Of a DNA stretch of 64,000 nt, positions 9,979-22,766 are shown one piece after another. Under the pieces are notes generated by a model. That model was not told the origin of the DNA and made no database searches. It worked only from the letters and a program-made list of their open reading frames with translations. The stretch comes from Cellulomonas sp. C5510 (GTDB lineage: Bacteria > Actinomycetota > Actinomycetes > Actinomycetales > Cellulomonadaceae), in assembly GCF_019797765.1 (NCBI RefSeq), contig NZ_CP081862.1, positions 2,728,001 to 2,792,000 of the forward strand, given 5' to 3'. Made by a program: the position numbers and the translations under genes. Positions within the stretch are counted from its first letter, which is position 1. Each line of letters begins with the position of its first letter.

Positions 9979-12087
9979 TCAGCGCCGGGCGAGCCTCCGC
10001 CGGGCGACGAGGACCATCCCCGCACCGGCCACGAGCCACAGCACGCTGAGCCCGACCGCCCCGCCGACCTCGGAGCCCGTCACGGCGAGCGCCGGGAGGG
10101 ACCGGTCGGCGATGCGCGCGAACGTCCCGTCAGTCGTCAGCGCGAAGGGGATCACGAACTCGGCGCGGCTGCCGTCGAGGGCGGTGCCCACGGCGATCAG
10201 GCGGTGGTGACCCGCCTCGAGCCCCGCGGGCAGCAGCCCGGTCACGGTCGCGGTGCCGTCCGCGCCGACCGTCGCCGTCCCGATGACCTGGGGCGTCGAG
10301 TGGACCTCGAGCACCAGCTCCGAGCCGGGCAGCAGCCCGGTGCCGGTGGCGGACACCGGGGTGCCCTGCGCGACCGCACCGAGGCTCCGCCCGAGCTCGG
10401 CCTGCACCGTGGCGGGCACGGTGGGCACCGTGGGCACGGTGGGCACGGTGGGCACGGTGGGCACCGTGGGCACCGTGGGCACCGTGGGCACCGTGGGCAC
10501 CGTGGGCACCGCCGCGATGGTCCCGGTGACCGTCGTGGTGGCGGGCAGGGTCACCTCGTCGCCCTCCGCCGTCGCCACCAGCTCGCACGCACCGACCCCG
10601 GTGCCGACGACGGCCCCGTCGACCAGACGGCACGCGCCCGTGGCGGTGACGGTGACGGGCAGACCGACGTCCGAGACGTCGGCGACCGGGATCGGCGCGA
10701 AGCCGACGGTCAGCCCGGTGAGCGCCGGGAGCGTCAGGTGCTGGACCCGCTTGCCGACCGTGACCTGGATGCTCGCGGAGGCCGCCTCCGTCTCGCTGTC
10801 GCCGGCCTGCGTCGCGACGATCTCGCAGTCGCCGACCCCTGTGAGCTCGAGGTAGCCGTCGGAGACGGTGCACGCCCCCGACCCGGTGAAGGTGACCGGC
10901 AGGTCCGCGGAGGAGCGGCCGACCAGCTGCACCGCGGCGGCGCCGTACGTCAGGTCGTTCCCCGGGGAGTCGATCGTGACCGTCTGCCCGGCCTTGACGA
11001 CCACGACCGCCGACGAGGCGCTCGACCCGGCGACCGCCGTGGTCCCGGAGAACGTGGCCGCGAGCGCGGTCGTCCCCGCGGGGCGATGCACGCCGGTGAC
11101 CGTGGCGACGCCGTCCACGACGGGCACCCCCGCGTGGACCGTCCCGGCGATCGTCAGGTCCACCGTGCCGCCGTCGACGGGCGTGCCGCCGGCCGTCACG
11201 GACGCGGTGACGTCGAACGCCTCACCGCTGGCCGGGTTCGCGACGCTCGTGCCGAGCGCGACCGCCGACGTCGCCCGCGGCACGGTGCCGCCGGCCGACG
11301 GCGCCGCCGCGGGGTCGGAGGGGCCGATCACGTTGGAGGCCGTCACCCGGATGCCGTAGGAGACGCCGTTGTCCAGGCCGGAGACCACCGTCGACGTCTC
11401 CGGCGGGGTGCCGGTGACGGTCGCGCACGGCGCCTCCGTGCCGCCCTCGGGGGTGCACAGCACCTCGTACGACGTCACGCCTCCGGCGACGTCCTCGGGC
11501 ACGGTCCAGGAGACCGCGACCGAGCCGTCACCCGGCGTGGCCTGCACATCGCGCGGCGGGCTCGGGACGCGCGTCGCGAAGGTGAGCCGCGCGGTGCCCT
11601 TGTACGGGGGCTGGTAGGCGCCCAGGGCGATCCGGTAGTCCACGCCGGCCGTGAGCGTCACCGTGACGGCGGCGTCCAGGCTGTACGAGTCGTCGTTGTG
11701 CGCCACGAACGAGCCCGCGGCGGTCCACACCTCCAGCGTGTTGTCCCAGCCGGACGGGGAGAGCGACGTCGCGCGGATGTACACCCGGACCGTCTCCGTC
11801 GGGGTGTAGGAGAACCAGGTGGTGTTGTCCCAGTACGGCTGCGTGCTGGTCTGCCGCGATCCCGACGAGACGGACCCGACGTTCGTGACGTCGACGCTGG
11901 AGTCGAGGTTCGCGACCGGCAGCGGGACGGCGGCGCCGGCCGTCGTCCCGCCGGCGGCCTCACCGGCGGCGACCGCGGTCCCGGGGGCCGTGACGGCGGC
12001 CGTCGGGGCGAGCAGGAGCACGGCGGCGATCATCGCGATCCGCCGCCACCCCCTTGTCGCACGGGTACGGGCTCCAGGCCTGGACAT
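9979..12087 (-). CDS. Sortase-E type cell-wall protein with FN3 and Ig-like domains
   Basis: A 702-residue secreted protein. Residues 1-41 are a signal peptide (RR, hydrophobic core, AVAA). A beta-rich domain follows, then a fibronectin type III domain (about 175-270), several bacterial Ig-like modules and ten VPT tripeptides (about 527-556). The C-terminus is a wall-sorting signal: LAVTG at 667-671, a hydrophobic helix and RRRLARR. LAxTG is the motif of actinobacterial class E sortases, so the protein should be linked to peptidoglycan; a sortase gene is not in this window. ATG 12087 has GGAG upstream. Adhesion or matrix function is an inference. Confidence 0.82.
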   Translation of the reverse strand: MSRPGARTRATRGWRRIAMIAAVLLLAPTAAVTAPGTAVAAGEAAGGTTAGAAVPLPVANLDSSVDVTNVGSVSSGSRQTSTQPYWDNTTWFSYTPTETVRVYIRATSLSPSGWDNTLEVWTAAGSFVAHNDDSYSLDAAVTVTLTAGVDYRIALGAYQPPYKGTARLTFATRVPSPPRDVQATPGDGSVAVSWTVPEDVAGGVTSYEVLCTPEGGTEAPCATVTGTPPETSTVVSGLDNGVSYGIRVTASNVIGPSDPAAAPSAGGTVPRATSAVALGTSVANPASGEAFDVTASVTAGGTPVDGGTVDLTIAGTVHAGVPVVDGVATVTGVHRPAGTTALAATFSGTTAVAGSSASSAVVVVKAGQTVTIDSPGNDLTYGAAAVQLVGRSSADLPVTFTGSGACTVSDGYLELTGVGDCEIVATQAGDSETEAASASIQVTVGKRVQHLTLPALTGLTVGFAPIPVADVSDVGLPVTVTATGACRLVDGAVVGTGVGACELVATAEGDEVTLPATTTVTGTIAAVPTVPTVPTVPTVPTVPTVPTVPTVPTVPTVPATVQAELGRSLGAVAQGTPVSATGTGLLPGSELVLEVHSTPQVIGTATVGADGTATVTGLLPAGLEAGHHRLIAVGTALDGSRAEFVIPFALTTDGTFARIADRSLPALAVTGSEVGGAVGLSVLWLVAGAGMVLVARRRLARR
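10420..10509 (-). repeat. 9-bp minisatellite encoding (VPT)10
   Basis: Ten tandem copies of a 9-mer, GTGCCCACS on the coding strand, differing only in the third base of Thr codons. A related unit (VPA) follows at 10411-10419. The number of copies can change by slippage without a frameshift, so the stalk length may vary among strains. Confidence 0.95.
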
Positions 12088-12491: not shown

Positions 12492-13094
12492 CTAGATCCA
12501 GCCCTGCCGGCGGGCGTGGCGCGCGGCGTCGTGCCGGTTCCGCTCCCCGAGCCGGGTGATCGCGTTCGACAAGTAGTTCCGCACGGTGCCGGGCGCGAGG
12601 TGCAGCTCCCCCGCCATCGCCGCGATGGACCGGCCCTCCTGCGTCAACCGCAGCACGTCGAGCTCGCGATCGGTGAGCGGGCAGTCGGACTGCATCGCGT
12701 CGAACGCCACCACCGGGTCCACGTGCCGCCCGCCGACGTGGACGCGGCGGATGATCGCGGCGAGCTCCCCGGCGGCCACGCTCTTCGGGACGAAGCCGCG
12801 CACACCGGTCTCGAGCGCCGTGCGCAGCACCCCGGGGCGGGCGTGGCGGGTCACGACGACGACGCGCCGTCCAGGGTCGGCGGCCAGCAGCTCCGCGGCC
12901 GTCTCGAGGCCGCTCGCCCCGGGCATCTCGAGGTCGAGCAGGAACACGTCGACCGCGTGGCGCGCCGACTCGGCGAGCACGGACGGGCCGTCGTCGCACT
13001 GCGCGACGACCGCGATGTCCCCCTCGAGCTCGAGCAGGGACGCGAGCGCCGTCCGCAGCAGGGTCTCGTCGTCGGCGAGCAGGACGCGGATCAC
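12492..13094 (-). CDS. NarL/FixJ-family response regulator of the peptide cluster
   Basis: A 200-residue regulator. The receiver domain begins VIRVLLADDETLLRTAL with the acidic pair, has the phosphorylated Asp in VFLLDLEMPG and Lys in GFVPKS. The C-terminal LuxR-type helix-turn-helix is LTDRELDVLRLTQEGRS...GTVRNYLSNAI. GTG 13094 overlaps the kinase stop by 4 nt. The pair is divergent from the ABC/methyltransferase/peptide run and most likely controls it. Layout and size resemble DesR-type regulators. Confidence 0.9.
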   Translation of the reverse strand: MIRVLLADDETLLRTALASLLELEGDIAVVAQCDDGPSVLAESARHAVDVFLLDLEMPGASGLETAAELLAADPGRRVVVVTRHARPGVLRTALETGVRGFVPKSVAAGELAAIIRRVHVGGRHVDPVVAFDAMQSDCPLTDRELDVLRLTQEGRSIAAMAGELHLAPGTVRNYLSNAITRLGERNRHDAARHARRQGWI

Positions 13095-14257
13095 GCCGGA
13101 CCCCGCCCCCGGGTGCCCGGGCGACGGGTCACCCGGACGGTGAACACCTCGCCCTCGCACCCCCAGTCGACGACGGCCCCGCCGGCGGCGAGCCGGTCAC
13201 GCAGACCACGCAGGCCCCGGCCGGTCCCCGGCTCGCGGCTGCTGGGCAGCACGCCGTCGTTCGCCACCGTGAGGGAGTCCTCCCGTACGACGACGTCGAC
13301 CCGGGAGGCGTCGGCGTGCCGCAGCACGTTGCTCGCTGCCTCGCGCAGCACCAGGGCGACCTCCTCGTCCCACAGGTCGAGCGACCGGCCGGGGGCGTCG
13401 ACGCGCGTGTCGATCCCGGCGGCGGCCAGCAGCGCCTGCAGGTTCCCCAGCTCCAGCGCCGGCGACGTCTGCCTGCTGTTCTGGGCGATCTGCCGGGTCT
13501 GGGCCTCGAGCTCCACCACGAGCTGCTCGATGCTCGCGAGCTCGGCGCGGCTGCGCTCGACGTCGCCGTCGAGGCTGCGGCGCGCGAGCTCCGTCTTGAA
13601 CTTGATCGCGAGCAGGGTGTGCCCCTGGACGTCGTGCAGGTCGGCGGCGAACCGCAGCCGCTCCCGCGTCAGGACGAGGTCGCGCTCCCGCACCCGGTCC
13701 TCCTCCCACCGCTGGTACCACGCCCAGGAGGTCGCGACGGTCAGGAACACGAGCAGCTCGACGGCGAGGATCAACACCGTCGGTTCGCCGTGGTCGTCCC
13801 AGACCTCCGAGGCGGGCCTGCCGCCGGCCGCCACGACGGCCAGCGGCACCCCGGCCAGCACGAGTGCCGCCGCCGCGAGCCAGACCGGCCGCAGCCGCCA
13901 GGTCGTCGCGGCCAGGGCGGCGGGAGCGAGCAGCGCGAACCCGACGTTCGGGTCCTCCGGCAGCGCGAGCCGCGCCGTCCAGCCCAGGACGCCGACGCCG
14001 AGGACGGCGACGGGCCGCACCCCGACGTCGGGGTGCGGCCAGCGCCACGCGAACCACCCGAGGTAGCACGCGACCACGACGGTCGCGGCGACCGTCAGGA
14101 CGTGGGTCCGCGGCCCCGCGAGCGCACCCGCGATCCCGAGACCGCCGAAGACGAGCACGACGCCGATCCAGACGACGCGGACGAGCCGCTCGTTGCGCGC
14201 GGCATCCAGCCCGGGCGACGCGACGGGGGGCGCACCGCCCACCTCGTCCTCCCCCAT
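13091..14257 (-). CDS. Sensor histidine kinase (HisKA_3, DesK-like)
   Basis: A kinase of about 388 residues with five or six membrane helices in the first about 160 residues and no large outer domain, as in DesK/LiaS-like sensors that detect membrane changes or peptides within the bilayer. The dimer domain has RLRFAADLHDVQGHTLLAIK with the phosphorylated His; the ATPase part has REAASNVLRHADAS and GRGLRGLRDRL. I favour ATG 14257; GTG 14290 is also possible. It overlaps the regulator gene and faces the exporter promoter. Confidence 0.85.
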   Translation of the reverse strand: MGEDEVGGAPPVASPGLDAARNERLVRVVWIGVVLVFGGLGIAGALAGPRTHVLTVAATVVVACYLGWFAWRWPHPDVGVRPVAVLGVGVLGWTARLALPEDPNVGFALLAPAALAATTWRLRPVWLAAAALVLAGVPLAVVAAGGRPASEVWDDHGEPTVLILAVELLVFLTVATSWAWYQRWEEDRVRERDLVLTRERLRFAADLHDVQGHTLLAIKFKTELARRSLDGDVERSRAELASIEQLVVELEAQTRQIAQNSRQTSPALELGNLQALLAAAGIDTRVDAPGRSLDLWDEEVALVLREAASNVLRHADASRVDVVVREDSLTVANDGVLPSSREPGTGRGLRGLRDRLAAGGAVVDWGCEGEVFTVRVTRRPGTRGRGPA

Positions 14258-14311
14258 GAGGTCACTGTGGCACGGGTCCGCGCTGCTCACACCCCTCTCG
14301 CGCCACCGCCG

Positions 14312-14323
14312 TGACTCGTGTCA
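14312..14323. promoter_or_regulatory. Candidate operator TGAC-N4-GTCA
   Basis: The inverted repeat TGACTCGTGTCA lies in the divergent region between the kinase gene and the ABC ATPase gene, with GGTGTCACCGGTCACC just beyond (14332-14347). It is a plausible binding site of the neighbouring LuxR-type regulator, but short. Confidence 0.35.
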
Positions 14324-14403
14324 TGCGGACAGGTGTCACCGGTCACCCCACCCCGTGATCCCGCGCACTACCCGCGCCGCAGCCGTCCTCGCACGCTGGG
14401 CCC

Positions 14404-15324
14404 ATGTCCAGCGCACCAGTCCCGGTCGAGGTCGTCGGCCTCACCTGCCGGTACGACGACGTCACCGCCGTCGACGGCGTGAGCTTCGACGTGCAGCACG
14501 GCGAGCTCTACGCGCTGCTCGGCACCAACGGGGCGGGCAAGACGACGACGCTCGAGACGCTCGAGGGGCACCGCGCTCCCGACGGCGGGACGGTGCGGGT
14601 GCTCGGCGGCGACCCTGCCGACCGGCGGCGGACCCGGCCCCGGGTCGGCATGATGCTCCAGGAGTCCGGGCTCGCGGCCGACCTCACCGTGGCGGAGAGC
14701 CTGGACCTCGTCGGGCGGCTCAGCGGGCGCCGCGACGACGTGCCCCCGCTGCTCGACCGGGTCGGCCTCGCCGACAAGGCGAACGTCCGCGTCGTGCAGC
14801 TGTCCGGCGGCGAGCGCCGACGGCTCGACCTGGCGATGGCCGTGTACGGGTCACCTCCGCTGCTGTTCCTCGACGAACCGACGACCGCGCTCGACCCGGC
14901 TGCCCGCGACCGCCTGTGGGAGCTGGTCGCCGACCTGCGCCGGGAGGGGACGACCGTCCTGCTCACCACCCACTACCTCGAGGAGGCCGAGCAGCACGCG
15001 GACCGGATCGGGGTGCTGCACCGCGGCCGGCTGGTCCGTGAGGGCTCGCTCGCCGAGCTGGTGGGGACGATGCCCTCCGTGCTGGAGTTCGAGGCGTCCG
15101 CCGCACCGCCCCGCTGGCCCGCTCACCGCGAGGGCCGCCGGTTCAGCGTCGGGACGCGTCAGCCGCAGGCCGACCTGCTCGAGCTCCTGCGGTGGGCCGA
15201 GCGCGAGCAGGTCGAGCTCGAGAACCTGCGGTGCACGCCGCCGAGCCTCGCCGAGATCTTCCGGCAGGTCGACGGCACCTCCGCACGGGACGACCTGCGC
15301 CCGGCGACGGCGGTGGCGTCGTGA
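14404..15324 (+). CDS. ABC transporter ATP-binding protein (peptide cluster exporter)
   Basis: A 306-residue ATPase. Walker A GTNGAGKTT (residues 40-48), Q-loop MMLQESG, signature LSGGERRRLDLA, Walker B LLFLDEPTTALDP and the switch His in LLTTHYLEE are all intact. The extra about 90 C-terminal residues are usual in drug and peptide exporters of the DrrA/NatA/CcmA group. It is the first gene of the plus-strand run and overlaps the permease gene by 4 nt (GTGA). By context it should power export of the peptide products or give self-resistance. Confidence 0.9.
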   Translation: MSSAPVPVEVVGLTCRYDDVTAVDGVSFDVQHGELYALLGTNGAGKTTTLETLEGHRAPDGGTVRVLGGDPADRRRTRPRVGMMLQESGLAADLTVAESLDLVGRLSGRRDDVPPLLDRVGLADKANVRVVQLSGGERRRLDLAMAVYGSPPLLFLDEPTTALDPAARDRLWELVADLRREGTTVLLTTHYLEEAEQHADRIGVLHRGRLVREGSLAELVGTMPSVLEFEASAAPPRWPAHREGRRFSVGTRQPQADLLELLRWAEREQVELENLRCTPPSLAEIFRQVDGTSARDDLRPATAVAS

Positions 15325-16031
15325 CCGCCGTCGCACGGGCCGAGCTCACGATGCTGGCCCGCAACCGGGTCGTCGCGGTGTCCGCGCTGCTGATGCCGCT
15401 GGCCTTCGCCGTGTACCTGGTAGCGATGCGGGACACCTTCGGGGGCGGCGGCCCGGTCGCCGCGCTCCAGGTCGTCGTCATGGCGGCGTTCGGCGTGTAC
15501 ATCACGGCGACGACCACGCTCGCCGGGCGGCGCCAGACGCTGTTCCTCAAGCGGCTGCGCAGCGGGGCCCTCCCCGACCGCGCCGTCCTCGCCGGTCTCC
15601 TCCTGCCCGTCGTCGGGGTCAACCTCGCCCAGGTCGTCGTCGTGCTCGGGGTCGTCGCGGCGACGGGCTCCGCACCGTCCCAGGGCGTCGTGGTGCTCGC
15701 CGCCGTCCTGGCCGTCGAGGCCATGTTCCTCGCGCTGGCGCTGGCGACGTGGGGTGTGACCACCTCTCCCGAGCACGCGCAGGTCACGACCGTGCCACTG
15801 TTCCTGCTCACGCTGGGCGCGGCCGCCTGGACCCTGCTGACCGGCGTGGACGACCTCGTCGCGGTCAAGCTCGCGCTCCCGGGCGGCGCCGCGGCGGCGC
15901 TCGTCTCCGAGGCGTGGACCTCGGGCGTCACCGCTGCGCGCGCGCTGCTGCTGCTCGGCCCGACGCTCGGCTGGGCGGCGGTCGGCCTGCTCGTGACCCG
16001 GTCGACGCTGCAGTGGGAGCCCCGGTCGTGA
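15321..16031 (+). CDS. ABC-2 type permease (peptide cluster exporter)
   Basis: A 236-residue membrane protein with six hydrophobic helices, starting with the short cytoplasmic piece TAVARAELTMLARNR that is typical of ABC-2 permeases. It pairs with the upstream ATPase (4-nt overlap) and its stop overlaps the methyltransferase start by 4 nt, so the three genes are translationally coupled. It is small for the family but complete. Confidence 0.85.
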   Translation: MTAVARAELTMLARNRVVAVSALLMPLAFAVYLVAMRDTFGGGGPVAALQVVVMAAFGVYITATTTLAGRRQTLFLKRLRSGALPDRAVLAGLLLPVVGVNLAQVVVVLGVVAATGSAPSQGVVVLAAVLAVEAMFLALALATWGVTTSPEHAQVTTVPLFLLTLGAAAWTLLTGVDDLVAVKLALPGGAAAALVSEAWTSGVTAARALLLLGPTLGWAAVGLLVTRSTLQWEPRS

Positions 16032-16882
16032 CCGCGGCGCTCACCCGCCCCGGGCCGTCCGCCGGGACCAGCGGCAGCGGGCACGACGGTCGCGCCGGCT
16101 ACCGCGAGTACGGAGACCAGTTCGCCGCCTTCTACGACGCCGTCTTCCCGCGGGAGGCGATCGGGACCGACGAGCTCGCCTGGCTGCGGCAGGTGCTGCC
16201 GGGGCGGACCCGGAGGCTCGCGGAGCTCGGCGTCGGGACCGGTCGGGTCGCCCTCCCGCTGGCCGGTTCCCTGCTGCGGGACGAGGACGGACCGGTCGAG
16301 TACCTCGGCGTCGACGTGTCCGCCGCGATGCTGGGCGAGCTGGGCTCCCACGACCCGCGCGGGCTCGTCTCCCCCCTGCTCGCCGACATCACCGACGTCA
16401 CGCTGCCCACCGGCCTCGACGCCGTGCTGTGCGTCTGCGGGACCCTCTCGATGATCACCGAGCCGCGCGGCCAGGCGGCCGCCGTCGCAGCCGCAGCCGC
16501 CGCCCTGCGTCCCGGCGGCGTGCTGGTGGTCGAGACGCACCACGCCGACGCCGTCCTCGCCCTGCACCCGACCGCCGACCGGTCCTGGGCCGTCGCCTAC
16601 CCGGGCGACCGCCGGATGCTCGCCACGTTCTCCCACCTCGACGGCCGACGGTGGGACCTCGAGCACTGCTGGCTGGATGCCGGCACGGCGACCTTCGCCC
16701 GCGAGAGCAGTCGCGTGACGTCCCTCGACGAGGTCGACGCGTACGCGACAGCCGCCGGCCTCGTCCCGGCCGGCCGCAGCGCGGGCCTCCGCGGCGCCCC
16801 GCTGACTCCGGCGTCGCCGACGGCGACCGCCGTGTACCGCCGTCCCGGGCCCCCGCCCCCGGAACCCGACCAGGAAGGCTGA
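16028..16882 (+). CDS. Class I SAM-dependent methyltransferase
   Basis: A 284-residue methyltransferase. After a Ser/Gly-rich start, motif I is LAELGVGTGRVALPLA (residues about 65-79), the acidic loop is YLGVDVSAAML, and LADITD, VLCVCGTLSMI and LRPGGVLVVETHHAD follow. Enzymes of this shape methylate small molecules or peptide termini; MpaM of daptide pathways is one such context, though I cannot show orthology. It overlaps the permease by 4 nt and precedes the HTTM fusion by 3 nt, which places it firmly in the cluster. It could N-methylate the mature peptides. Confidence 0.85.
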   Translation: MTAALTRPGPSAGTSGSGHDGRAGYREYGDQFAAFYDAVFPREAIGTDELAWLRQVLPGRTRRLAELGVGTGRVALPLAGSLLRDEDGPVEYLGVDVSAAMLGELGSHDPRGLVSPLLADITDVTLPTGLDAVLCVCGTLSMITEPRGQAAAVAAAAAALRPGGVLVVETHHADAVLALHPTADRSWAVAYPGDRRMLATFSHLDGRRWDLEHCWLDAGTATFARESSRVTSLDEVDAYATAAGLVPAGRSAGLRGAPLTPASPTATAVYRRPGPPPPEPDQEG

Positions 16883-16885
16883 CCC

Positions 16886-18721
16886 GTGGACCGTTCAGAC
16901 CTCCGGCGCGCGCTCCGCCACCTCGAGACCAGGGACGGCGCCCTCACCGCCACCGAGCGGCTGTCGGCGCTCGTCACCCTCTGGTCCAGTCTCGAGCACC
17001 TGGCCAACGGCGCGAACCGGCGTCCCGGCGGTTTCAACGACTGGCAGCAGCTGCGGCGCACGGGCCTGGCCGAGCAGCGCGCGGTGCGCAGCGTGCTGGA
17101 CGTCGTCGCCCGGCCCCCGGTGCTGACGGCCCTGCACTGCGCGCGCATCGCGGCATCGGCGGTGCACCTGGCCCCGGTCCGGGACCGGCGGGTGCGCGCG
17201 GTCGCGGCAGCCGTCAACGCCGGGACCGGCCTGCTCACCGCCCCCGTCCACCACAACGGTGGCGACGGCTCGGACCAGGTCGGGTTCTTCACCCAGGCGC
17301 TGTCCGCCGTCGCCCGCGCCCGCCCGGGAACCCGCACGACCAACGCCGTGCTGTGGACGCTCGCGTCGCAGGCCACGCTCGCCTACCTGGTGTCGGGCTG
17401 GGTCAAGCTCGCCGGCGAGCCCTGGCGGCGTGGCTCCGCGCTCGACGGCGTGATGCGCACCCGCACCTACGGCGCCGAACCGGTGTACCGGATCGTCCAC
17501 CGGCACCCCGTGCTCGCGCGGGCCGGCGAGATCGGCACCCTGGCCCTCGAGTGCGGCTTCCCCGCGGTGTTCCTCCCCCACCGCGGCCTGCGCGTCGCGT
17601 ACCTCGGCGCTGTCGCGGGGATGCACGCGTCGATCGCCGGGGTCATGGGGCTCGGGCGGTTCCTCCCGGCGTTCCTCGCGCTGCAGCCGGCCGTGCTCTA
17701 CACCGCCGGGACGGCCCCCGGACGGGACGACACCCTGCCGCGCGTGCTCGGTGCGACCGCACTCGCCGGCGCCGGAGCCGCCGCGTGCGCGCAGCTCACC
17801 TGGCACCGCGCGGCACGGCGTCCCCGCGCGGGCCAGCGCCTCGTCCCCACCACGTCCGGGAGCCGGCTGGCGGTCCGGTACAGCGAGGGCACGGACCCCA
17901 CCGCGCCCCTGCTGGTGTTCGAGAACTCGCTCGTCGCCACCCAGGAGTACTGGGACGCGCTCGTGCAGCAGCTCGGTGGCGCGTACGCGACGCTCACGTA
18001 CGACCGGCCCGGCTACGGCGCCAGCACGGCGGGCCGGGGGCCGGCGCTCGCCGACCACGCCCGGGACCTCGACGACCTGGTCGAGCGGTACCGCCGCGGG
18101 CGGGAGGTCTGGCTCGTCGGGCACTCCCTCGGGGGCTTCCTCGCCCTGGAGGCGGCCGACGCGCTGCGCACGGCTCCGACGGGTCTGGTGCTGCTCGACC
18201 CGACCGCGAGGACCCTCACGCCGGACGGCGCCAGCGCGGTCGACCAGGAGTCGATGGACACGCTCACCGCGAGCTTCCCGCTGATGGAACGGTCGCTGCG
18301 GGCCGGGTGGGGGGCGTTCCTCAGCCCGCGGGTGTGGGCGATCCCCGCGTCGCCCGGCTCCGCACGGCGGATCGCTGCCGTCTACCGGGACCCCGGGATC
18401 TGGCGGGCCGGACGGCTGGAGTGGCGGGCTGCGACGGCGCGCATCCTCGCGCCCCCCGCACCCGCGCGGCGGCCCGCCGTGCCGGCCCTCGTCCTGACCG
18501 CCTCCACCAGCGCGGCGCTGCACCCGGCCGCGACCGCCGCCCACCGCGGGCTCGCGGAGCGGCACCCCGACGGCGAGCACCTCGTGGTCCGCGGCACGCA
18601 CGACGGGCTGCTGACCGCGGCCGGTCCGGTCGCCGCGGTCGCCGAGCACATCCGCAGGTTCGTGGACGACCTGTCCGCCCGCCGCCCCTGGTCGGGTGCC
18701 GCCGTCGCGGAGTCCGCGTGA
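16886..18721 (+). CDS. HTTM-like membrane domain fused to an alpha/beta hydrolase
   Basis: A 611-residue two-part protein. Residues about 25-315 are a polytopic membrane region with the HTTM (vitamin-K-carboxylase-like) pattern: SGWVKLAGEPWRRG, a YRIVHRHPVLARAGEIGTLA stretch and later helices. SdpB, needed to mature the SDP killing peptide of Bacillus, belongs to this superfamily. Residues about 325-600 are an alpha/beta hydrolase with nucleophile Ser414 in VGHSLGG and likely His572 in GTHDG. The joining of the two is unusual and could couple processing with peptide cleavage or acyl chemistry. GTG 16886 lies 3 nt after the methyltransferase stop; the stop overlaps the next ATG. Confidence 0.75.
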   Translation: MDRSDLRRALRHLETRDGALTATERLSALVTLWSSLEHLANGANRRPGGFNDWQQLRRTGLAEQRAVRSVLDVVARPPVLTALHCARIAASAVHLAPVRDRRVRAVAAAVNAGTGLLTAPVHHNGGDGSDQVGFFTQALSAVARARPGTRTTNAVLWTLASQATLAYLVSGWVKLAGEPWRRGSALDGVMRTRTYGAEPVYRIVHRHPVLARAGEIGTLALECGFPAVFLPHRGLRVAYLGAVAGMHASIAGVMGLGRFLPAFLALQPAVLYTAGTAPGRDDTLPRVLGATALAGAGAAACAQLTWHRAARRPRAGQRLVPTTSGSRLAVRYSEGTDPTAPLLVFENSLVATQEYWDALVQQLGGAYATLTYDRPGYGASTAGRGPALADHARDLDDLVERYRRGREVWLVGHSLGGFLALEAADALRTAPTGLVLLDPTARTLTPDGASAVDQESMDTLTASFPLMERSLRAGWGAFLSPRVWAIPASPGSARRIAAVYRDPGIWRAGRLEWRAATARILAPPAPARRPAVPALVLTASTSAALHPAATAAHRGLAERHPDGEHLVVRGTHDGLLTAAGPVAAVAEHIRRFVDDLSARRPWSGAAVAESA

Positions 18722-19275
18722 TGTCCGCGCGCCGGGACCGCGGCGACGCCGCTGTCGTGGTCGTCGTCGCGCTGGCCGCCTGGGTGCTCGCGACCGCCAC
18801 CGGCCAGCACCCGAACCAGAACTTCGACCGCGTCCGCGGCATCGACCGGGCGTCGGTGCTGCTGCCCAACTGGCGCTTCTTCGCGCCGGTCCCCGCCAAC
18901 AAGGACGTCGTGCTGCTGCACCGGGTGCGTCGGGACGGACGCATCGGCGAGTGGCAGCACACCCACCTGGCCCCGGCCAGGCGGGTCCGGCACGTGCTCT
19001 GGTTCCCCGAGCGACGGGTCGACAAGGGGATCTTCGACGTCGTCGGCCGCTTCCTGCGCACGGTGGAGCAGGTGGGCGTCGGCTTCGAGGACGGCCCCGA
19101 CTACCAGATGCTCGCCGGGTTCGTCCGCCGGCGCGTGCTCCTCGACGGCGCCGACGGCGTCGAGGCGTTCCAGTTCGCGATCGCCCGGGAGAGCGGCTAC
19201 GCGGACGAGCCGCTCGAGGAGATCTTCGTCTCCCGCAAGGAGGTGCTCGCGCCGCACGCGGCGACGCACCGGTGA
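18721..19275 (+). CDS. Membrane-anchored protein, SdpA-like by layout
   Basis: A 184-residue protein with one N-terminal membrane helix (about residues 10-27) and a soluble domain outside. The segment LLPNWRFFAPVPANKDVVLLHRV is the part that resembles SdpA-family antimicrobial-peptide proteins (a planar N.W.FF..P pattern after the helix). In Bacillus SdpA and SdpB together convert proSdpC to the toxin. Here the gene starts inside the stop of the HTTM fusion (TGATG), the same pairing. Homology is judged by pattern only. It is followed by a hairpin and then the first peptide gene. Confidence 0.6.
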   Translation: MSARRDRGDAAVVVVVALAAWVLATATGQHPNQNFDRVRGIDRASVLLPNWRFFAPVPANKDVVLLHRVRRDGRIGEWQHTHLAPARRVRHVLWFPERRVDKGIFDVVGRFLRTVEQVGVGFEDGPDYQMLAGFVRRRVLLDGADGVEAFQFAIARESGYADEPLEEIFVSRKEVLAPHAATHR

Positions 19276-19287
19276 GACCCCTGCTGT

Positions 19288-19309
19288 CCCGCACGCACCC
19301 GCGTGCGGG
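19288..19309 (+). other. Hairpin upstream of the first peptide gene
   Basis: CCCGCACGC and its complement form a perfect 9-bp stem with loop ACCC, 22 nt before the first peptide ATG. It could stabilise a processed mRNA 5' end or weakly end the upstream message. Confidence 0.45.
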
Positions 19310-19331
19310 CGACCGAGAAGAGGAGAGAACG

Positions 19332-19481
19332 ATGCTCAGCTCGACGATCCTTGCCGCCGCCCCGTTCGACGCACCCGAGGGTGCCCTGCACGCCGAGGAG
19401 TCCCCGCTGGGGGCGACGCCGCTGGTCGCCGCCGTGGCCGGCGCCGTGGCGGCGTACACGTACGCCCAGGCCAACGGCTGA
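19332..19481 (+). CDS. Putative precursor peptide A1 (49 aa)
   Basis: Unannotated-type small gene with a strong site (AAGAGGAGAG) before ATG. It shares FD (residues 12-13) and LGATP (26-30) with two neighbouring small genes at identical spacing. After ATP comes a 19-residue Ala/Val-rich stretch ending in YTYAQANG. There are no Cys residues, so lanthionine or disulfide bridges are excluded. I read it as leader (1-30) plus core (31-49) of a ribosomally made peptide; cleavage after ATP is a guess from conservation. Confidence 0.7.
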   Translation: MLSSTILAAAPFDAPEGALHAEESPLGATPLVAAVAGAVAAYTYAQANG

Positions 19482-19500
19482 CCCGACGGAGGTGAGCGCC

Positions 19501-19695
19501 GTGACCCGGTCCGGGATGAGCCGCGCCGAGGGCGCGCTGCTGGTCGCCGCTCCCGCCGTCGCGATGGCCGCGATCCTGATCGGCACCGTCCTCGGGGTCG
19601 ACCTGGGGGTGCTGCTGGTCGTGGTCGTGGCGGTCATCGCGCTCGCGGCCGCGGGATGGGGCTTCCTCACCCGCGGCCGCGGGCCACGGCGGTGA
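19501..19695 (+). CDS. Two-TM small protein, possible immunity factor (64 aa)
   Basis: Two hydrophobic helices (about residues 12-31 and 35-54) and a basic tail (TRGRGPRR). It lacks the FD and ATP motifs of its neighbours, so it is not another precursor. GGAGGTGA precedes GTG 19501. Lying between precursor genes A1 and A2, it fits a membrane immunity protein or export helper; no family is recognised. Confidence 0.65.
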   Translation: MTRSGMSRAEGALLVAAPAVAMAAILIGTVLGVDLGVLLVVVVAVIALAAAGWGFLTRGRGPRR

Positions 19696-19771
19696 GCAGG
19701 CTCCCGCGGAGAGCCGACCCCGGCGCGGTCGCCCACGCACCGCGCCTCCCCCCGACGAGAGGAGGTGACAC

Positions 19772-19936
19772 ATGACAGGAGCAGTCCTCGCGGCGCACCC
19801 GTTCGACACGGGTGAGGCCACACTGGTCGCCCCGGAGGGCGCGCTCGCCGCCACCCCGTTGGCGGCCGCGGCGGCGACGGCCGTGCTCGCGGCCGCCGTC
19901 GCGGCGTACGCGGTCGAGGAGACCGTCGGGAACTGA
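19772..19936 (+). CDS. Putative precursor peptide A2 (54 aa)
   Basis: Second member of the small-peptide family: FD at 11-12, LAATP at 25-29, with the same 12-residue interval. The 25-residue C-terminal part is almost only Ala and Val, then EETVGN. A near-ideal site (GAGGAGGTGA) precedes ATG 19772, which argues for high expression. The core should be a membrane-active helix. It is too short for usual gene calling. Confidence 0.72.
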   Translation: MTGAVLAAHPFDTGEATLVAPEGALAATPLAAAAATAVLAAAVAAYAVEETVGN

Positions 19937-19970
19937 GCCCCGAGCCCCGCACCTTCCGGAGGAGAGCACC

Positions 19971-20135
19971 ATGCGCACGTCGTCCGTGCTGGACAACCAG
20001 GAGTTCGACCGCCCGACCGGCACGACCCTCGGGGAGCTCCGGCCCCTCGCGGCGACGCCGGCCGCCGTCGCGTTCGCGAGCGCCGTCGTCGCGGCCGCCC
20101 TCGCGGGCGCACAGGTCGGCGACATGGTCGACTGA
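19971..20135 (+). CDS. Putative precursor peptide A3 (54 aa)
   Basis: Third family member: FD at 12-13, LAATP at 26-30, then a 24-residue Ala/Val-rich core containing Phe and ending GAQVGDMVD. The leader differs from A1 and A2 outside the motifs (DNQEFDRPTGTTLGELRP), so conservation of FD and ATP is meaningful. GGAGGAGAG precedes ATG 19971. A hairpin follows directly after the stop. Confidence 0.72.
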   Translation: MRTSSVLDNQEFDRPTGTTLGELRPLAATPAAVAFASAVVAAALAGAQVGDMVD

Positions 20136-20138
20136 CCC

Positions 20139-20177
20139 GGTTCCCGGGGACGGCGCACCGCGTCGTCCCCGGGAACC
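20139..20177 (+). terminator. Hairpin after the precursor genes (likely partial terminator)
   Basis: A perfect 14-bp stem (GGTTCCCGGGGACG and its complement) with an 11-nt loop, between A3 and the oxidoreductase gene. No T-run follows, as is usual in this genome. Such a site would let precursor mRNA outnumber enzyme mRNA, a common device in peptide clusters. Confidence 0.55.
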
Positions 20178-20216
20178 GCGCGGCGCACCACCGGACCCGC
20201 ACCCCAGGAGAGGCCG

Positions 20217-21761
20217 ATGTCCACCGAGCACCGCGACCTGGTCGTCCCCCTCGCCCGGGGCGGCACCCGGCGCCGCCCGCCGGACGCCGTCGTGGTCGGC
20301 GCCGGGCCGAACGGGCTCGCCGCCGCGATCGAGTGCGCCCGCGCCGGGCTCGTGGTGCACGTGGTCGAGCAGAGCAGCACGATCGGCGGCGGCGCGCGCA
20401 CGTCGGAGCGGATCCTGCCGGGCCTGCTCCACGACGACTGCTCCGCGGTGCACCCGATGGCGGCGGCGTCGCCGTTCTTCCAGGACCTGCGCGACGCCGG
20501 CCTCGCTCCCGAGGACGCCGGCCTGCGGCTGGTCCACCCTCCGGCACCGCTCGCGCACCCGCTGGACGGCGCCGACGCCGGGGTGCTGCACCGCGACCTC
20601 GAGCGGACCGCCGCGGGCCTCGGCGCGGACGGCGCACGGTGGCGCAGGCGGAACGGCCCGCTGGTGGCACGGATGCCCGACCTGCTCACGGAGGTGATGC
20701 AGCCGCTGGTGCACCTTCCCCGGCACCCGCTCCTGCTGGCCCGGTTCGGCGTCCCCGCACTGGTCCCGGGCGCGCGGCGTGCCGCCTCGTACACCACCCC
20801 GCAGGCCGCGGGCCTCGCGGCCGGCCTGGCGGCGCACGCGTTCACGAGCCTCGACCTGCCGGGCTCCGGCGCGGTCGGCGCGCTGCTCGGGGCCCTCGGG
20901 CACAGCCACGGATGGCCCTTCGCCGTCGGCGGCTCGCAGTCCATCACCACCGCCCTGGCGCGGATCCTCCTCGAGCTCGGCGGCACGATCACCACCGGGT
21001 TCCGGGTCGACCACCTCGACGACGTCGCCGGGCTGACGGGGGTCGACCCGAGGCGCGGACGCGGGACCGTGCTGCTCGACACGTCTCCCTCTGCCGCAGC
21101 GCGCATCCTCGGCACCGACCAGCCCCGCCGCCAGAGGGCCGCCTACCAGCGGTTCCGCCACGGGCCGGCGGCGTTCCGCGTCGACCTCGCCGTCCGCGAC
21201 GGGATCCCGTGGGCCGACCCCGCGGTGGCCGGCGCGGGGTCGGTGCACCTCGGCGGCGCCGCGGACGAGGTCGCGGCCGCCGAGGGGCAGTGCTGGGACG
21301 GAGGGCTGCCCGAGCGGCCGTTCGTCGTGCTCGCCCAGCCCCATGTCGCGGACGACACGCGCTCGGTCCGGCTCGACGGCCACGACGTCCACCCCGTCTG
21401 GGCGTACGCGCACGTCCCGCGAGGGTTCCCGGGCGACGCGACCGACCTCGTCCTCGCGCAGATCGAGCGGTTCGCCCCCGGCATCCGGCGCGCCGTCGTC
21501 GGCACGTGGCACCGCACCGTCCCCGAGCTGGCCGCCCACGACCCGAACGCCGTCGACGGGGACGTGTGCGGTGGCGCCAACGACCTCCGGCAGCTCGTCG
21601 CACGGCCCCGCGCGCTGCGCCCGTACGAGACGGGCGTCCCCGGGGTCCTGCTCTGCTCGGCCTCCACGCCCCCCGGCGCGGGCGTGCACGGGATGTCCGG
21701 GGCCAACGCCGCACGCGTCGCCGTGTCCGCTGCCGCGCTCGCCCGGGCAGGCGAGCGCTGA
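20217..21761 (+). CDS. Phytoene-desaturase-like FAD oxidoreductase
   Basis: A 514-residue flavoprotein of the CrtI/amine-oxidase superfamily. The N-terminal dinucleotide-binding motif is VVVGAGPNGLAAAIECARAG followed by VVEQSSTIGGGARTSE; the C-terminal FAD motif is PGVLLCSASTPPGAGVHGMSG. No carotenoid genes are nearby, so a role on the peptides (dehydrogenation or oxidative decarboxylation) is a better reading by context. AGGAGAGG precedes ATG 20217. It is the last gene of the run and a terminator overlaps its stop. Confidence 0.82.
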   Translation: MSTEHRDLVVPLARGGTRRRPPDAVVVGAGPNGLAAAIECARAGLVVHVVEQSSTIGGGARTSERILPGLLHDDCSAVHPMAAASPFFQDLRDAGLAPEDAGLRLVHPPAPLAHPLDGADAGVLHRDLERTAAGLGADGARWRRRNGPLVARMPDLLTEVMQPLVHLPRHPLLLARFGVPALVPGARRAASYTTPQAAGLAAGLAAHAFTSLDLPGSGAVGALLGALGHSHGWPFAVGGSQSITTALARILLELGGTITTGFRVDHLDDVAGLTGVDPRRGRGTVLLDTSPSAAARILGTDQPRRQRAAYQRFRHGPAAFRVDLAVRDGIPWADPAVAGAGSVHLGGAADEVAAAEGQCWDGGLPERPFVVLAQPHVADDTRSVRLDGHDVHPVWAYAHVPRGFPGDATDLVLAQIERFAPGIRRAVVGTWHRTVPELAAHDPNAVDGDVCGGANDLRQLVARPRALRPYETGVPGVLLCSASTPPGAGVHGMSGANAARVAVSAAALARAGER

Positions 21762-21783
21762 GCCCCGTCCCCCGGACGGGGCT
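21761..21783 (+). terminator. Terminator of the peptide cluster
   Basis: AGCCCCGTCC and its complement form a perfect 10-bp stem with loop CCC, starting on the last base of the oxidoreductase stop codon. It marks the 3' end of the cluster. Confidence 0.65.
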
Positions 21784-21800: not shown

Positions 21801-22099
21801 CTACGGCACGGGGACGGCCGCGGGGATCGGCGCGGTGTCCGTGGTCGCCCGCTCGGGCTGGGCGCCCTCGACGTCGACGTCGACGTCGACGTCCGGGAGG
21901 ATGCGGTCCAGCCAGCGCGGCAGCCGCCAGGCGTGCCTCCCCGGCACGTGCGTCACCGCGGGGTCGAGCAGCAGCCGCACGACGAAGGCGTCGACCAGCA
22001 CGCCGGACGCGAGACCGAAGCCGATCGCCTGGATCATCACCGAGGGGGAGAGCACGAAGCCGCCGAACACCGAGATCATGATGGCGGCGACGTCGGCGG
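21801..22099 (-). pseudogene. C-terminal remnant of an MMPL-family transporter
   Basis: About 95 codons read AAIMISVFGGFVLSPSVMIQ, then the helix GFGLASGVLVDAFVVRLLLDPAV, which are the last two membrane helices of MMPL lipid/drug exporters, followed by a short Asp/Val-rich tail. Intact members exceed 700 residues; here everything upstream is missing. The join near 22090-22100 runs straight into unrelated sequence, so it is a truncated relic. Confidence 0.75.
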
Positions 22100-22398: not shown

Positions 22399-22766
22399 TG
22401 GTGGAGGTGGCGGGAATCGAACCCGCGTCCGATGACGTGGAACCAGGGCTTCTCCGGGCGCAGTCTGCAGCTGCTTTTCTCGGCCCCCGCGCTCACGCAG
22501 ACAAGACGCGGACGGGCCCAGTCGCCTGAAAGTCCCCGCAGCCCCGACGACGAGGACTGCGAGCAGTGGCTCCCTAGATGACGCCAGGAACTGAGTCGGA
22601 AGCTAGCTCAGGCTGACGGACTTCGAGGCTCGCTCAGGCGGCGAGGGCGAAGTCGGTGCGCTTGGAATCGGCACCTATGGGTTTACACGGAGCGTTAGCG
22701 AGATAACCGTGTGTCCTCGGCCCGCTTCTCCTGGCTCGACGATCACCGTCGAAACCGATCACCCCC
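22399..22766 (-). ncRNA. ssrA: tmRNA (ssrA)
   Basis: The 368-nt RNA rescues stalled ribosomes with SmpB. The 3' end is TTCGATTCCCGCC..CCACCA with CCA encoded; the 5' end is GGGGGTGATCGGTTTCGAC. The 7-bp acceptor stem pairs with one G-U. The tag frame at 22634-22672 starts with resume codon GCC and gives ADSKRTDFALAA then TGA, an actinobacterial tag ending in the LAA degron. Sequence for several pseudoknots lies between. Its partner smpB is at 34878-35348. tmRNA 3' ends are favoured insertion sites for islands. Confidence 0.97.

Follow-up and report, generated by a model that had tools for sequence, protein, structure and literature searches.

Which class of natural product is specified by a bacterial gene cluster that combines three short hydrophobic peptides with a membrane protein fused to a hydrolase? 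The question is posed by positions 12,492 to 21,783 of a 64,000-nucleotide stretch of the Cellulomonas sp. C5510 genome (contig NZ_CP081862.1, positions 2,728,001 to 2,792,000), which we call the window and whose numbering is used throughout. An initial annotation had seen in this region a cluster for ribosomal peptides, with genes for three precursors, a fusion of HTTM domain and hydrolase, a methyltransferase and an exporter, and had called it undescribed. The former reading is borne out. The latter has to be withdrawn, because the gene set is that of the linaridin machinery, as described for corynaridin, and because homologues of its proteins LinH and LinL adjoin a precursor of the cypemycin family. 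As judged from sequence, the locus very probably is a cluster for ribosomally synthesized and post-translationally modified peptides (RiPPs) that uses linaridin-type machinery and belongs to a clade with threonine-poor precursors. The class is known; its peptides here are nearly devoid of the class-defining residue, threonine. This Thr-poor clade is one new point, and the homology of LinH's membrane half to SdpB, an enzyme of cannibalism-toxin maturation, is another.

Linaridin-type machinery at the locus

Beside three precursors with a PxxxTP-like motif, the cluster encodes LinH (16886..18721, + strand), a fusion of an HTTM membrane domain (residues 1 to about 310) and a serine alpha/beta hydrolase (residues about 315 to 600) present in a single copy in the genome, and LinL (18721..19275, +), a protein of 184 amino acids (aa) predicted to form one long N-terminal helix and an alpha/beta domain (AF2 model, mean predicted local distance difference test score, pLDDT, 86.4). 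They are accompanied by a LinM-type S-adenosylmethionine (SAM) methyltransferase (16028..16882, +; Methyltransf_25, E 1.4e-8), a CrtI/CrtO-like FAD oxidoreductase (20217..21761, +; NAD_binding_8, E 4.4e-9; CrtO and crtI models matched far below cut-off), an ATP-binding cassette (ABC) exporter and a two-component system.

The cypemycin precursor model of NCBIfam (NF033752) matched three of 295 genomes of one genus, Streptomyces as inferred from the protein name of the centre genome, one of them above the cut-off (98.4 versus 35 bits). This precursor (locus L105) is adjoined by homologues of the window LinH (about 32% identity, E 9e-26), LinL (about 27%, E 2e-10), methyltransferase (25%, E 1e-6) and ABC ATPase. 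At a second locus (L106), a Thr-rich precursor lies near a below-cut-off match, and LinL is accompanied by an HTTM protein and a hydrolase encoded separately. The window LinH matches them with E values of 1e-27 (HTTM) and 2e-11 (hydrolase), LinL matches its counterpart with 2e-20, and the FAD enzymes are 45% identical. Because homologues of LinH and LinL, and of the methyltransferase and the FAD enzyme, surround these two precursors, we regard the window machinery as linaridin-type.

The gene set is retained among relatives. A protein search for LinH relatives yielded 70 proteins (alignment A1, 42 rows), and the locus sample comprised 79 distinct loci, representing the best 80 of 247, in which linkage was counted up to 9 kb from LinH. 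LinL was linked in 78 loci, in 77 of which its gene comes immediately after that for LinH in the same orientation. For the methyltransferase the count was 62 and for the FAD enzyme 56, and 50 loci had all three; if only the 58 loci longer than 21 kb are considered, the single counts were 58, 47 and 47. With precursors called in 52 of the 79 loci, the co-conservation of peptides and enzymes that the initial annotation presupposed is found in other genomes. LinL itself is patchily distributed: of 297 genomes examined across the order, 6 have a match, one of them being the genome that contains the window, and none of the six other genomes of the same genus among those listed has one.

In the corynaridin system (PMC9927463), LinL is the marker and occurs with an alpha/beta hydrolase, an HTTM protein, an ABC transporter and PxxxTP cleavage, without a decarboxylase, a layout resembling that of the window. 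Corynaridin differs, according to the same paper, in its Thr-rich precursor, of which seven Thr and one Ser are dehydrated, in having HTTM and hydrolase as two genes (crdG and crdE), and in having a short-chain dehydrogenase/reductase (SDR) but no methyltransferase, whereas the window has a fused LinH, a CrtI-like FAD enzyme, a methyltransferase and three Thr-poor precursors. Together with corynaridin, legonaridin is grouped under the type B linaridins. The type A linaridins cypemycin and grisemycin share with the window, through the L105 homologues, a fused LinH, LinL, the methyltransferase and the ABC ATPase. They bear a C-terminal aminovinyl-cysteine (AviCys; PMC9927463), in contrast to the window cores, which contain no Cys and one to three Thr each.

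Threonine-poor precursor peptides

The precursor genes encode pep1 (19332..19481, +; 49 aa), pep2 (19772..19936, +; 54 aa) and pep3 (19971..20135, +; 54 aa), with the motifs PLGATP, ALAATP and PLAATP and predicted cores of 22, 28 and 27 residues counted from Ala-Thr-Pro (ATP). The cores contain two, three and one Thr, respectively, the motif Thr counted in each, and end in G, N and D. Shine-Dalgarno sites precede all three genes, and GC at codon position 3 is 0.89 to 0.97 in ten + strand genes of the cluster, so the window genes look real; for pep2, the call draws on its L[AG]ATP motif, its Shine-Dalgarno site and its codon-position GC. Among first-ATG open reading frames (ORFs) of 40 to 80 aa on both window strands, L[AG]ATP occurs only in these peptides, and PxxxTP is exact in two of them, pep1 and pep3. 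A precursor profile built from 80 peptides of relatives and none from the window ranked pep3 first (E 6.4e-8) and pep1 second (1.8e-4) among 233 small window ORFs. In cypemycin, cleavage occurs just before ATP, giving Me2-Ala1 and dehydrobutyrine (Dhb) at position 2. By this analogy, the cores probably begin at ATP itself, and not after it as first proposed.

Small ORFs with a PxxATP-type motif adjoin LinH in many relatives. Precursors were called at a profile score of at least 12 combined with TP or SP in the motif; the seeds left out were regular-expression artefacts (L045, L064, L069, L084) and three duplicates, and the duplicate loci L006 and L007 are excluded from the list. If the count is extended to the window, to L105 and L106 and to three short loci that lack precursors, 55 of 85 loci carry at least one. 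For composition, one antisense ORF of L069 was removed, pep2 was added by hand and L105 and L106 were excluded, leaving 107 precursors in 53 loci (the 52 and the window). Their cores have a median of one Thr beyond the TP motif (none in 18, at most one in 61) and consist to 62% of Ala, Gly and Val, as compared with three and six Thr beyond the first motif in L105 and L106, respectively. GxxxG occurs 131 times in 96 distinct cores versus 69.9 ± 7.3 times in 500 shuffles, none of which was as high, a significance that is overstated because the cores are related.

At least two precursors are present in 43 of the 55 precursor-bearing rows, L105 and L106 having one each. For the 32 loci with exactly two non-identical precursors, matching in the same order beat crosswise matching in 314 of 496 comparisons, and none of 2000 random order flips reached the observed sum. 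Mean similarity was 0.305 for matched pairs, 0.209 for crossed pairs and 0.287 for peptides of one locus, which indicates two precursor types that keep their order, yet are not far apart. In this, the peptides are reminiscent of two-peptide bacteriocins that carry GxxxG motifs. Close pairs of relatives' precursors had a pooled ratio of nonsynonymous to synonymous changes (pN/pS) of 0.31 over 53 comparisons, in which pairs are not independent; both comparisons between L080 and L091 exceeded 1. The relatives' precursors thus appear to be mostly under purifying selection, which upholds for them the expectation of non-random substitution, and the window's three peptides have no close relative in this sample.

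In the LinH tree, a branch with a support of 100 in the Shimodaira-Hasegawa-like approximate likelihood ratio test (SH-aLRT) separates the 82 other rows from L105 and L106. The tree was made by a quick method, with SH-aLRT support only, and excludes L006 to L010 and L059. On this basis, the window appears to lie in a LinH clade with Thr-poor, Ala/Gly/Val-rich and GxxxG-rich precursors, mostly at least two per cluster, a clade that may already figure in published linaridin genome-mining tables. Because its precursors are so poor in Thr, the clade is unlikely to rely chiefly on dehydration; and since 18 of the 107 cores lack Thr beyond the motif and the median is one, the conserved LinH-LinL pair probably has a role besides dehydration.

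Several observations weigh against the linaridin assignment or the extent of the clade. In the profile search, pep2 ranked only fourth (E 0.25), below an unrelated ORF at 0.019, and its motif is AxxxTP rather than PxxxTP. The NCBIfam linaridin precursor models matched none of the three window peptides at E ≤ 0.5, which fits the divergence of the peptides; five of ten sister precursors matched such a model at E ≤ 1, the best at 8.4e-4 and below cut-off. No precursor was called by profile in 27 of the 79 loci, and although about 19 of these contain candidates recognised by eye, some of the latter are without a TP motif. As relatives were selected for their similarity to LinH of the window, and the precursor seeds with a pattern that includes TP, clade size, linkage and Thr poverty may be overstated. 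The class-defining Dhb is something that sequence cannot show, and the maturation steps proposed below, from carbanion formation to export, are predictions.

Further candidates lie beside LinH. Those of the Streptomyces scabiei type (L092:9515-9781, L088:9528-9806, L087:9539-9808, L098:1118-1399), which the profile missed, are 88 to 93 aa long, carry PTLGTP and combine almost no core Thr with a long Ala/Asn-rich tail. In others (L061:9300-9710, L068:6625-7063, L053:8764-9818), the TP motif is mostly gone (for example PVMTI, PVATLGL, PVICIAN); five such candidates follow one another in L053, and one of these has STP.

Relationship of LinH to SdpB and probable link to vitamin K carboxylase

The predicted structure of LinH (pLDDT 90.7) consists of a helical membrane half and an alpha/beta hydrolase. 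In the hydrolase half, S414 and H572 are invariant in A1 and, as members of this family use such a Ser and His, are the putative catalytic residues. The membrane half was compared with SdpB of the SDP toxin system, as the initial annotation had suggested. Profile comparison by hhalign gave a probability of 95.3% and an E value of 2.4e-8; the real score of 66 was reached by none of 120 shuffled decoys, the best of which scored 33. By this comparison, the membrane half is a remote homologue of SdpB. DGSDQ, K174, W180, E222 and H247...MGL of LinH are in register with DGGDQ, K180, W186, E232 and H257...MGL of SdpB, the common stretch being His-x6-Met-Gly-Leu.

A search of the SdpB profile (A5, 30 of 120 listed SdpB) against the PDB at E ≤ 10 matched seven sequences, all of them vitamin K carboxylase (GGCX), with weak E values of 0.016 to 0.019. 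The alignment spans GVKKL and places the SdpB Lys on the second Lys of the KK pair, the catalytic K218. The LinH profile itself did not match GGCX. The probable relationship of LinH to GGCX runs through SdpB and the HTTM family; Pfam HTTM is matched by 28 of 30 SdpB rows and, at E ≤ 1, by 12 of 31 LinH rows. According to PMC12589487, vitamin K hydroquinone is deprotonated by K218 acting as the base, and the structure was modelled with menaquinone-4 hydroquinone; the substrate of GGCX is a different one. Among the papers listed in searches of the open-licence literature, none connected linaridin proteins with SdpB or with GGCX. PMC5719810 treats linaridin and sdpABC genes as separate groups, and PMC9927463 names the corynaridin protein an HTTM protein.

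The 184-aa LinL had been described as SdpA-like. Its score against a true SdpA profile (A3, 32 of 120 listed SdpA) was reached by 7 of 60 decoys shuffled by column and by 10 of 60 shuffled in blocks, and PF17418, the SdpA family, was matched by none of the 41 LinL rows at E ≤ 1; LinL is not demonstrably SdpA-like. Alignment A2 holds 41 of the LinL family members found, and A4 31. DUF5819 was matched by 36 of the 41 rows at E ≤ 1, with a best value of 2.9e-7 and 0.065 for the window LinL.

Alternative assignments

The SdpB homology raises the question of whether the locus directs an actinobacterial cannibalism toxin of the sdpABC type, in which the HTTM protein would take the part of SdpB and the 184-aa protein that of SdpA in the maturation of a small hydrophobic toxin. 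Either system couples an HTTM protein with a small partner that starts in a membrane helix. The LinL score within the decoy range speaks against this, as do the linaridin motif in the window precursors and the failure of ten scanned + strand cluster proteins to match the SdpC family. Streptomyces SdpB proteins (about 310 to 360 aa) have no hydrolase domain, in contrast to LinH, and actinobacterial sdp loci occur separately. An SDP-type system is thus very unlikely. One sdpC-sdpA-sdpB locus (L101:622-2936) belongs, by its protein names, to Streptomyces achromogenes, its SdpC being recognised by eye; the SdpA model was matched in one of 296 genomes of a phylum sample. A daptide or daptide-like pathway to C-terminally aminated helices is less probable still, to the point of being nearly negligible. 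The resemblance on which the initial annotation had drawn comprises several Ala/Val-rich precursors forming hydrophobic helices, an exporter and a methyltransferase that is a distant match to the daptide model NF041820 (5.7e-10, far below cut-off); cleavage near a conserved Pro is also described for daptides (PMC10036551). Beyond the methyltransferase, the parallel does not hold. None of the scanned cluster genes encodes an RRE (RiPP recognition element)/DUF protein, a PF00465 dehydrogenase, a pyridoxal phosphate (PLP) aminotransferase or a site-2 protease, the ELExMEAP leader motif was not found in the window peptides, and the cores end in residues other than the Thr of the daptide definition given in PMC10036551.

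A subtler alternative is that the locus represents a separate RiPP class which shares LinH and LinL and makes epimerised, N-methylated and perhaps paired helices without functional dehydration. The SH-aLRT support that sets the Thr-poor clade off from L105 and L106, the 61 of 107 cores with at most one Thr beyond the motif and the by-eye candidates lacking even TP are in its favour. Motif, LinH and LinL are, in contrast, common to the window, L105 and L106, the methyltransferase is shared with L105 and the FAD enzyme with L106, and the root and size of the clade hang on these two long-branched, Thr-rich rows in a tree whose rows were picked for closeness. We consider a separate class unlikely, although a reading to be reckoned with; it overlaps with the linaridin assignment, so that the two are not mutually exclusive. 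The linaridin-type cluster of a Thr-poor clade remains our preferred assignment.

Organization of the locus and its surroundings

Frames, order and overlaps of the genes are as initially annotated, with a two-component system divergent from the exporter, enzyme and peptide genes. The LuxR/NarL-type response regulator (12492..13160, −; Response_reg 4.8e-22, GerE 1.2e-11) has relatives of 47 to 55% identity up to 9 kb from LinH in 11 of the 79 loci. The histidine kinase (13091..14290, −; HisKA_3 5.3e-12), whose start codon is uncertain, is divergent from the biosynthetic operon, and regulator, kinase and ABC ATPase occur together near LinH in ten loci. On the other strand follow a DrrA-like ABC transporter ATPase (14404..15324, +; ABC_tran 2.5e-30; DrrA model TIGR01188 6.6e-63, below cut-off) and an ABC-2-type permease (15321..16031, +), a putative exporter and/or self-protection component for which the Pfam scan gave no significant match (best ABC2_membrane_3, 0.24) and which has homologues near LinH in nine loci. 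The five genes from the ATPase to LinL overlap by 1 or 4 nt or are separated by 3-nt gaps.

Between pep1 and pep2 lies a gene for a 59-aa protein with two transmembrane (TM) segments (19516..19695, +; an in-frame GTG start is possible at 19492), a candidate for self-protection. In Curtobacterium (L021), an ORF of 55 aa with a similar layout directly follows LinL and precedes a cut-off ORF start; its two TM segments and its likeness were judged by eye. Hydrophobic ORFs of 40 to 63 aa recur after LinL (L021:4027-4194, L064, L067, L079, L087, L088, L092, L093, L097, L098) and are likewise candidates for self-protection. Between the precursors and the FAD gene, a 19-bp RNA hairpin (20138..20178, +; ΔG −45.4 kcal/mol, z −5.3, equalled by none of 200 shuffles) is possibly a terminator or attenuator that sets the precursor-to-enzyme ratio.

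The 3′ ends of ssrA genes are common insertion sites of islands. About 0.6 kb from the FAD gene, the tmRNA gene ssrA (22399-22766, −; tag ADSKRTDFALAA) has its 3′ end toward the cluster; no exact repeat of this end of at least 13 bp was found within the window. A 92-aa ORF between cluster and ssrA (21804-22079, −) aligns solely with the C-terminal portion of an MMPL transporter model (E 1.1e-6) and looks like a remnant. Adjoining the regulator, a 702-aa protein (9979-12087, −) combines fibronectin III and Ig-like domains with a repeated PTV tract.

Proposed maturation and implications

We tentatively propose the following route. LinH and LinL would form a complex in the membrane to which the precursors are recruited by their leaders. 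There, the HTTM domain of LinH and its invariant Lys might form C-alpha carbanions in the hydrophobic core, so that L-residues are epimerised and the few Thr dehydrated. This central step is a serious possibility, if not the favoured one, and each of the others is at most as probable. One carbanion-forming enzyme could do both, because epimerisation and beta-elimination of water from Thr each begin with removal of the C-alpha proton; in Thr-poor cores, epimerisation would dominate. We take grmL to be a LinL gene. According to PMC10373908, grmL is indispensable for grisemycin, and grisemycin, the salinipeptins and cypemycin contain several D-residues. The corynaridin paper calls the exact roles of LinH and LinL unclear (PMC9927463).

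The subsequent steps are predicted from protein family and gene position. Leader cleavage before ATP may follow, a task that could fall to the serine-hydrolase domain of LinH, given that no leader-protease gene is reported for linaridin clusters (PMC9927463). The methyltransferase would then dimethylate the new N-terminal Ala, N,N-dimethylation being predicted by comparison with CypM, which dimethylates an N-terminal Ala (PMC10373908). The FAD enzyme could carry out a further oxidation or recycle a redox partner. Finally, the ABC pair would export membrane-active helices, which may act in combination on related actinobacteria, and the two-TM protein may protect the producer.

A more speculative extension, which we hold to be improbable as a whole, is that the HTTM domains of LinH (with LinL) and SdpB (with its partner) are bacterial counterparts of vitamin K carboxylase. 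The Lys (K174 in LinH, K180 in Streptomyces SdpB, K218 in GGCX) would generate, with reduced menaquinone and oxygen, a base that takes C-alpha protons from the leader-bound peptide, and the carbanions would be reprotonated to D-residues or lose Thr water. Thr-poor clusters would then make mainly epimerised, N-dimethylated GxxxG helices in sets of two or three, and the SDP toxin would also contain D-residues. The supply of the base by Lys and a reduced quinone is our own extrapolation.

The homology between LinH and SdpB, the weaker link between SdpB and GGCX and a nearly Thr-free linaridin-type clade make it directly testable whether the HTTM domain performs carbanion chemistry, perhaps with menaquinol, or is a dedicated Thr dehydratase. 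If the former is true, the chemistry would connect a cannibalism toxin of Bacillus with an antibiotic class of actinobacteria and with a human clotting enzyme, and would point to enzymes that introduce D-residues into ordinary ribosomal peptides.

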